This document shows, in pieces, positions 60,048 to 63,000 of a stretch of DNA of 64,000 nt; the first letter of the stretch is position 1, and every line of letters starts with the position of its first letter. Position numbers and translations under genes: made by a program. Where the stretch lies: assembly GCF_045679555.1 (NCBI RefSeq), contig NC_092091.1, positions 69,680,389-69,744,388 of the forward strand, in the 5' to 3' direction. The notes beneath the pieces are model-generated. The model was given only the letters and a program-made list of their open reading frames with translations. It searched no databases and was not told where the DNA came from. Source of the stretch: Salvelinus alpinus (taxonomy: Eukaryota > Chordata > Actinopteri > Salmoniformes > Salmonidae).

Positions 60048-63000
60048 TCATGGCTGGCTCTGGATCTGTTCTACAGGGAGCTGAAGTTGGGTTGGATTCC
60101 TTAGACGTCTCAAATCTTCTTCCACCTCACACACACACACACACACACACACACACACACACACACACACACACACACACACACACACACACACACACAC
60201 ACACACACACACACACACACACACACAATCAGCAGAAGCCCCTTATAGACTGAATACATCAGTGGAAAGTCCAATAAGCAGTGAGCAGAAATTCTGCAGT
60301 GCTTTGTATAAGTAAGTATAGCAACATACCGAAGCCAACTCCTCTCTCAGATCATTGTACTTCTGCACGTTGAAGCGCTCCTTCTTGGCTCCCTTGTGGA
60401 AGTAATACAGGAACTGCCTGTCTTTGGCGTCTGGATAGACATAATCCTACAGAGCAAAACAACCATGATCCATCTGGTGCAGACTAACGTATGTGTATCA
60501 CTTCTGCTCATAGTTATCTGGGTTTAAATTCTAACTTGAGATAACTGTGTGAACCTCTGTGTAAATCATGCACTGATGTCATTAGGAGATATGATCAGAA
60601 TACAGGTGATGCACCTAGAAGCGTAACAGGAATGTTGGTGTGTATCAGCCTCCTTGTTGTGGCACGGATGTACACAGTTTGTACTGTACTTTATAAGATA
60701 GAACTCACAAAATAATATGGACGCAGGACACAGGTGCTGTGGGACCAACTGGAAGGTTCAGACCATGTCGTGTCATCAAGACCTAGGTGAAACGTCTTCA
60801 ATACAGTGCATGCTATACACATTGCAGCCACAGGAGGGCAGACATACGCGGAGATTTCTCTGTTACATTAATTTGATTGCATCTACCATTGACGTCAATG
60901 CAGAGGCTTGAGCTGCACACAGTTATCTGAAGTTTGAGCTGCACACAGTTATCTGAAGTTTGAGCTGCACACAGTTATCTGAAGTTTGAGCTGCACACAG
61001 TTATCTGAAGTTTGAGCTGCACACAGTTATCTGAAGTTAGAATTCAACCCTGATAATTACTGTCTTCATACTGTACAGCATATGGCAATGGAGGAGTAGG
61101 TCACATAATGGGAACTTGACTACTCCAAGTTGTTGTAAGGAGACCAGGTGTGACTGAAATGAAAATGAAAGCCTCTTGTTCAAGTGCCCTGTAGTGACAG
61201 TACTCTTTGTGTACACAAGGGGGAGACACTGTCTTGACTACTTGTATTGAGACCGTGCTGGACATGGGTCCTGCTATCCTGCTTGGTGAGGACATAGCAG
61301 GGCTAGGCTNNNNNNNNNNNNNNNNNNNNNNNNNNNNNNNNNNNNNNNNNNNNNNNNNNNNNNNNNNNNNNNNNNNNNNNNNNNNNNNNNNNNNNNNNNN
61401 NNNNNNNNNAGGGTTAGGCTCCTGTACTGTACCTGCTTGGTGAGGACATAGCAGGGTTAGGCTCCTGTACTGTACCTGCTTGGTGAGGACATATCAGGGC
61501 TAGGCTCCTGTACTGTACCTGCTTGGTGAGGACATAGCAGGGCTAGGCTCCTGTACTGTACCTGCTTGGTGAGGACATAGCAGGGTTAGGCTCCTGTACT
61601 GTACCTGCTTGGTGAGGACATAGCAGGGTTAGGCTCCTGTACTGTACCTGCTTGGTGAGGACATAGCAGGGCTAGGCTCCTGTACTGTACCTGCTTGGTG
61701 AGGACATAGCAGGGCTAGGCTCCTGTACTGTACCTGCTTGGTGAGGACATAGCAGGGTTAGGCTCCTGTACTGTACCTGCTTGGTGAGGACATAGCAGGG
61801 TTAGAGTCCTGTACTGTACCTGCTTGGTGAGGACATAGCAGGGTTAGAGCCCTGTACTGTACCTGCTTGGTGAGGACATAGCAGGGTTAGAGCCCTGTAC
61901 TGTACCTGCTTGGTGAGGACATAGCAGGGTTAGAGTCCTGTACTGTACCTGCTTGGTGAGGACATATCAGGGCTAGGCTCCTGTACTGTACCTGCTTGGT
62001 GAGGACATAGCAGGGCTAGGCTCCTGTACTGTACCTGCTTGGTGAGGACATAGCAGGGTTAGGCTCCTGTACTGTACCTGCTTGGTGAGGACATAGCAGG
62101 GTTAGGCTCCTGTACTGTACCTGCTTGGTGAGGACATAGCAGGGTTAGGCTCCTGTACTGTACCTGCTTGGTGAGGACATAGCAGGGTTAGGCTCCTGTA
62201 CTGTACCTGCTTGGTGAGGACATATCAGGGCTAGGCTCCTGTACTGTACCTGCTTGGTGAGGACATAGCAGGGTTAGAGCTCCTGTACTGTACCTGCTTG
62301 TTGAGGACATAGCAGGGTTAGAGTCCTGTACTGTACCTGCTTGTTGAGGACATAGCAGGGTTAGAGTCCTGTACTGTACCTGCTTGTTGAGGACATAGCA
62401 GGGTTAGAGTCCTGTACTGTACCTGCTTGGTGAGGACATAGCAGGGTTAGAGTCCTGTACTGTACCTGCTTGGTGAGGACATATCAGGGCTAGGCTCCTG
62501 TACTGTACCTGCTTGGTGAGGACATAGTAGGCGAAGACTCCGATGCTGGTGCAGTAGGTGAGGAAGTAGGTGACGGGCTCCATGACGTCCCAGGAGTACA
62601 CCCACCAGGTGAGCCAGGCCAAGGCCCCGCCCTGCACAGACAGCACGGCCACACCTGTCCACAGAGTCCTGGAGGAGTGGAACTCGGCACTGCGCTCTAG
62701 CTGTGCCTTCACCTGTACAGGGAATCGTCGGGTGACAGAGGTTACTAGTGATAGCTAAAACAAACTCTCACACTCATGCAATCTTATCTTTGAAGGTTTA
62801 CCGCGACAGCTTTATGGTTGTCGACCAAAGGGATAGGTAGTAGGAGTCACACAGAGACGAGAGAGATGAGACAAGAGACGCGAGAGAGAAGTAAAGAGAG
62901 GAGATGCTGACAGACAGAAGGAAAGAACAAGAGAGAAACAGAGTCAGACGTGCACCCCTCCAGCACCTGTTCCAGAGGTGAGAGGTCCTGTTTGAGTCCA

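Follow-up and report, generated by a model that had tools for sequence, protein, structure and literature searches.

The window, by which we mean the whole 64,000-nucleotide stretch of Salvelinus alpinus DNA analyzed here, carries exons A to E of mcub on its minus strand, together with tandem arrays that begin at two of the exon boundaries. The features of this gene are as follows.

63921..64000, minus strand: native unit and start of a 70-bp acceptor ladder, which continues beyond the window as L005:1-2235
63852..63956, minus strand: mcub exon A; the ladder running past the window end derives from its acceptor and first 36 nt
62967..63133, minus strand: mcub exon B
62509..62712, minus strand: mcub exon C, 204 nt and 68 aa, with the pore helix pair, ending YYVLTKQ; native donor GTACAG at 62508-62503
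61279..62527 (approximate), minus strand: donor-side boundary minisatellite of mcub exon C, 26 donor-bearing units and a final partial copy without a donor
61310..61409, strand not applicable: 100-N assembly gap within the array, just before the last, donorless copy
60908..61038, minus strand: an unrelated second minisatellite in the same intron as the exon C array, 26 bp x 5.0, 100% matches
60330..60446, minus strand: mcub exon D, acceptor CTGTAG and donor GTATGT
60051..60125, minus strand: coding part of mcub exon E, the last coding exon, with the stop just after it

Joined together, the mcub exons form one frame of 280 aa that aligns to solved MCU and matches the MCU domain PF04678 at 1.5e-62. 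In the alignment against LARLTWWEYSW, the predicted protein carries W and V where MCU has R252 and E257, and these data bear out the identity of the gene proposed in the first-pass annotation. Substitution of R252 and E257 by W and V are the two changes given for MCUb in the part of the published account available to us (PMC11068563). No second mcub copy (homeolog) was present among the assembly matches for exon C or exon B. Exon B had one match, and the other matches of exon C were three mcu paralogs only. In all three paralogs, GTAACA follows the matching exon at the same codon, and the presence of GT there confirms the native exon C donor. The neighboring gene, which we take to be caspase-6, lies in convergent orientation to mcub, presumably as at human 4q25. 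Elsewhere in the window, repeated exon pieces at 41772-43294 and 50067-50706, which we assume to be pla2g12a-like, suggest a local gene duplication.

Exon C (62712-62509, open, phase 0) ends in CTATGTCCTCACCAAGCAG followed by GTACAG, and a 43-base array adjoins it directly. Each unit reads CTATGTCCTCACCAAGCAG and then GTACAGTACAGGAGCCTAACCCTG, with small variants, and is made up of the last 19 bases of exon C and 24 bases of the intron start; the first unit overlaps the exon end and contains the native donor. This arrangement, noticed in the first-pass annotation, was confirmed by direct reading, by TRF (period 43, 26.1 copies, 96% matches, score 2007, at 61410-62531), and by exact counting. 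The donor-bearing word of the units is a 15-mer. On the minus strand, CAGGTACAGTACAGG occurs 26 times, as the native donor and 25 copies, with 24 spacings of 43 bases and one of 44, whereas the exact count of CAGGTACAG on the plus strand of the window was 0. The earlier estimate of more than 25 tandem donors is therefore correct, and the 26 identical donors are only a minimum because the 100-N gap sits in the array; the true copy number and array length may be larger. All 25 copies read CAG/GTACAG, the slash marking the junction. The last copy (61297-61279) contains the 19 exon-derived bases but no GT, as it ends at CAAGCAG and continues with GATAGCAGG, and it is hence donorless.

The units had been described as differing by one or two changes, and the intron-derived part, in which most of the variation lies, does vary; the 24-base core TATGTCCTCACCAAGCAGGTACAG is closer than claimed, being exact in 23 of 26 units and changed at one position in the other 3. 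The range first assigned to the array, 61270-62712, contains it but takes in the whole of exon C as well. A search of the entire assembly (2.37 Gb, 928 contigs) for the 24-mer core with up to 2 mismatches returned 26 matches, all in this array, and the reversed 24-mer, used as the control pattern in the same search, returned 0. The exon-end array is thus far beyond chance. Among the mcub donors, copies of the own exon end within 420 nt scored no better than shuffles at N, A, B, and D; C did score better.

The order of the units retains a record of how they multiplied. Apart from one unit that the gap cuts, the 26 units fall into eight types in irregular order. Adjacent units are alike more often than in shuffles (8/25 at lag 1, p 0.011), and a block echo appears at lags 11 and 12 (5/15 and 6/14, p 0.04 and 0.003; 13 lags tried, p uncorrected). 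Near-identical units, runs of like units, and the block echo together indicate that local tandem duplication built the array, and the runs and the echo would be the trace left by slippage and unequal exchange. The proposal that the array arose from a captured exon end through slippage or unequal crossing over is supported by the same three features. Variable columns number 6 of 43 among the 24 full 43-base units. That the 9-base donor is free of them is expected by chance (P ~0.22), and we therefore rejected selection as the force preserving the array donors.

To follow what each of the 25 non-native donors would produce, we joined the correspondingly extended exon C to exons D and E. A premature stop resulted in 25 of 25 cases, 23 of them within the array and 2 via a frame shift in exon D. 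Extension by at least 3 units brings TAA or TAG into frame, and extension by 1 or 2 units shifts the frame into the next exon. The stops arise because TAA or TAG is present in one frame of every unit and the 43-base steps pass through all three. The suggestion that donors used in threes would keep the frame thus fails, as the frame-keeping extensions also stop. The 23 stops within the array are located at least 141 nt upstream of the last exon junction; for the remaining two, this distance is 22 and 17 nt. Under the 50-nt rule commonly applied to the decay of transcripts with a premature stop, 23 of the 25 products are candidates for decay and the remaining two are not. Since any use of a copy gives a premature stop, such use should be rare; if it occurs, it would only lower mcub output.

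The donors themselves give no sequence reason for the splicing machinery to prefer the native one, because all share the same weak 9-mer. They score 4.86 bits, and 7% of the GTs in the window score as high; the donor and acceptor scores used here come from tables of approximate human frequencies.

RNA folding did not single out the array either. Its RNA folded no better than shuffles (z 1.37 and 0.31), and RNA structure was rejected as a function of the array. In local pieces of 33 nt, 21 of the 25 array donors fell in a predicted 6-bp stem of −8.6 to −9.9 kcal/mol, compared with −3.6 for the native donor, and such a local stem would favor the native site. However, when longer-range accessibility was calculated for the native and 24 array donors, two of three settings placed the native one last, and the remaining setting placed it 14th. 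As this calculation points opposite to the 33-nt stems, structure does not explain a silence of the copies. Together with the chance-level invariance of the donor, the shuffle-like folding leaves the earlier idea that the array tunes mcub splicing or expression without support. Searches of the window with Rfam and ARAGORN found no known RNA families or tRNAs. At 59985-60227, a (TG)n tract of ~50 units directly adjoins the last mcub exon at its acceptor, and a (CA)n tract lies after the stop codon; in RNA the two are predicted to pair, with the entire last coding exon between them (−139 kcal/mol, z −6.1).

A second ladder in mcub is found on the acceptor side of exon A. Directly after the window end, L005 1-2235 holds a 70-base array of 31.9 copies with 98% matches, whose unit consists of the end of the intron before exon A and the first 36 bases of the exon. 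We counted 33 acceptors, the native one included, in units exactly 70 bases apart; 32 have the exact ACAGATGGTGC, and one is changed after ACAGATGGTG. Use of any of the 32 non-native acceptors leads to one and the same premature stop. AGACA, a short direct repeat, flanks the original 70-base unit on both sides and is of a type that could have mediated a first slippage.

The intron between exons A and B contains another minisatellite, of 24 bp x 12.5, at 63361..63660 on the minus strand. From our reading of the sequence, a tRNA-like (SINE-like) element lies at ~63635-63715, and its head seemingly gave rise to the repeat; ARAGORN and Rfam gave no match for the element. Minisatellites seemingly made from this SINE-like head (CTACAGAGGACCA) lie in three places near mcu-family exons: 63361-63660, L003:1-1363, and L004:1139-1355.

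Boundary arrays are also present in the mcu paralogs. Two of these, 400 kb apart on C7, have the donor of exon D repeated in 54-base units.

L026:1498-2011 and 3618-4589: 54-bp exon D donor array in one mcu paralog on C7
L027:2220-3809 and 5417-6000: 54-bp exon D donor array in the other mcu paralog on C7

The donor counts, native included, are 27 and 40, and the L027 array is cut off by the end of the examined piece. Both are interrupted at TA by a ~1.6-kb insert, which has inverted ends and resembles a Tc1-like transposon. The mcu paralog on C3 has an 18-base array that begins just inside the exon D donor and contains no exon bases. The intron after exon C was informative as well. In L026 it contains a diverged copy of the own exon end at 672-708 (33/37 bases), with a score of 29 compared with at most 13 in 300 shuffles; next to it, at 756-1224, comes a 12-base repeat in which AGGTAAGA and AGGTATGA words abound. 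The exon C boundary was therefore duplicated in a paralog too, although the array there is of other make-up. Donor-like AGGTAAGA words in this intron number 17 in L026 and 56 in L027 (617-1942). At the exon C end of L027 we found a 16-base likeness only, no better than the best shuffle, followed by a longer repeat of the 12-base kind seen in L026, and in L028 the intron following exon C held no copy of the exon end. Counting the mcub exon C array, the mcu/mcub family of this genome holds at least three boundary arrays of independent origin.

Within the window, one further exon, which we take to be ttc39-like, also has a duplicated donor.

22015..22176, plus strand: ttc39-like exon, ending CKESKWSQ
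22171..22291, plus strand: incipient boundary repeat of that exon, 52 bp x 2.3, TCCCAG/GTATAG, starting six bases inside the exon

This 52-bp repeat is an early stage of a boundary array.

The genome as a whole is very rich in minisatellites. In 20 evenly spaced 10-kb pieces of C3, C6, and C7, a threshold of period ≥10 and ≥5 copies gave 25 merged arrays in 11 of the 20 pieces, covering 55.2 kb of 200 kb. Two pieces were minisatellite throughout (L006:1-10000, 20-bp units; L025:1-10000, 31-bp units). In the window, a 39-bp x 12.9 array at 9236-9738 (13 codons per unit) is open on both strands over 176-191 aa. As a control for capture of exon boundaries, we took 20 short-frame rows from a PF00069 list of 146 kinase matches, with 160 bases on either side. 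None of these 20 pieces had an exon-capturing array of period ≥15; each piece was judged as a whole and some open frames reach the piece end, so that 40 edges is an upper figure. The nearest cases were L063, where a 25 bp x 4.6 array begins ~37 nt into the intron; L053 and L061, with poor pyrimidine-tract repeats close to the acceptor; and L057, with 12 bp x 2.1 near the exon end. A genome-wide habit of boundary capture was rejected on this result. The 23 edges of the mcu family, a small and partly ascertained sample in which one of the arrays prompted the survey, gave 4 boundary arrays, of which 3 arose independently, and a diverged single copy. This suggests that captures in the mcu family exceed the kinase background, and we claim no special mechanism for it.

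We consider that the array at mcub exon C is most likely a minisatellite of the mirage type that grew by passive repeat expansion and is probably neutral. What we observe directly is its sequence and block structure. A short stretch straddling the junction of exon C and its intron would have been tandemly duplicated in a founder step. Slippage or unequal exchange would then have expanded the duplicated pair to at least 26 units, homogenizing them meanwhile. The array would be tolerated because the copies, being on the intron side, leave the native donor adjoining the intact exon, so that the whole array can be removed as ordinary intron; the extra donors would be a by-product of repeat growth. 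An error of assembly, or a grossly mis-sized array, appears extremely improbable. The 100-N gap raises it, yet eight unit types in irregular order, a 44-base unit, and an intact exon favor a real array, as do the many comparable arrays in the genome, so that the length alone is in doubt.

Two functional readings deserve comparison with passive growth. If the array donors competed appreciably, the length of the array would set the amount of productive mcub mRNA, as a poison extension tuned by copy number. The 26 identical weak donors in register would suit such a rheostat, as would the stop that follows every use of a copy, in 23 cases more than 50 nt before the last junction, and the assembly has no second mcub copy to cover a loss. 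This reading is nevertheless unlikely: the array has no unusual RNA structure, its donors carry no sign of selection, amphioxus mirages are reported not to disturb splicing, and two ladders in one gene would compound the loss. Recursive splicing offers a different outcome, in which the exon joins an AG of the array and regenerates a CAAGCAG/GTACAG donor stepwise, leaving the mRNA unchanged. All 25 copies juxtapose AG and GT, and as acceptors 18 of them score 4.5 and 7 score 3.0, compared with 4.56 for the native exon C acceptor. A branch-point-like CTAAC, its A 25 nt upstream, is present in 17 of the 25 copies and in 0 of the 32 non-array window sites that pass both score cut-offs. However, equal double scores are common (those 32 are drawn from 491 AG/GT sites outside the array), the pyrimidine tract is poor and the acceptor context mediocre, and AG/GT follows automatically when a donor of this kind is copied. 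A step of 43 nt is too short for an intron, and recursive splicing would need at least 2 units per step. We therefore regard it as very unlikely. The two ideas can be combined: a self-regenerating AG/GT train would be spliced recursively, every step restoring one and the same exon-donor junction, and mcub output would depend on the length of the array; this seems quite unlikely too.

The passive mirage-type reading agrees with what has been described in amphioxus. There, in the parts of the reports available to us, mirages are tandem repeats across exon-intron boundaries of Adh3 and the globins BflGb6 and BflGb9 (PMC3087553) and of TnC and PGBD5 (PMC3902484), and normal splicing continues in their presence. 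As far as those accounts go, the likeness to mcub extends to minisatellite-like boundary copies, many with AG/GT, on the donor or the acceptor side and beside an intact exon, and to concerted turnover of the units. In mcub, the tandem units cross an exon-intron boundary of an intact gene, the exon end being confirmed by the mcu paralogs, and the units are highly alike (96% matches), with runs and a block echo as signs of concerted turnover. The amphioxus examples, in the same partial accounts, comprise 6 and 3 units of 150-160 bp in two haplotypes of BflGb6, a 157-bp unit in BflGb9, and units of 10-72 bp in Adh3. In contrast, the arrays found here number their splice sites at 26 or more, 33, 27, and 40, the gene family is of vertebrate type, and donor and acceptor ladders occur together in one gene, mcub.

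Other known systems share single features with the mcub array. Ordinary intronic minisatellites (VNTRs) have its periodicity, homogeneity, and block echo, whereas the mcub unit begins inside a coding exon, and its splice site is the same as the native one. Recursive splicing ratchet points juxtapose an acceptor and a donor as every mcub unit does; unlike them, the mcub array has a weak pyrimidine tract, a short tandem spacing, and a short intron. Human introns have reportedly arisen from tandem arrays, according to the title of a cited paper that could be relevant to vertebrate cases. As reviewed in PMC3443670, intron gain by tandem genomic duplication of AGGT likewise leaves duplicated AG/GT sites. 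We rejected this origin for mcub, as all three mcu paralogs have the intron at the same codon. In sea bream, alleles of MSTN-2 intron 1 and GH introns contain length-polymorphic tandem repeats, and an extra acceptor is predicted in MSTN-2 intron 1; the repeats are tandem as here, but capture of an exon end is not described in the available part of that report (PMC3045353). Our literature search, with most subscription papers outside its coverage, found no vertebrate splice-site minisatellite at these copy numbers. The mcub arrays are thus of a known kind and are unusual in copy number, in the presence of donor and acceptor ladders in one gene, and in their recurrence in paralogs.

These results suggest that boundary minisatellites, described in amphioxus, also occur in a vertebrate-type gene family, in which annotation from short reads might readily put exon ends in the wrong place. 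Should the copies be silent, the gene would serve as a rare natural test of splice-site choice, since one exon has at least 26 identical donors and has to use the first, and another has 33 near-identical acceptors and has to use the last; because the strength of the donor sequence cannot decide between them, proximity to the exon must. Were the combined recursive reading true, the array and the acceptor ladder lying two exons upstream would together make the gene a natural experiment in how the spliceosome chooses among dozens of identical sites. If the copies are not silent, an inhibitor of mitochondrial calcium uptake would be under the heritable control of array length.
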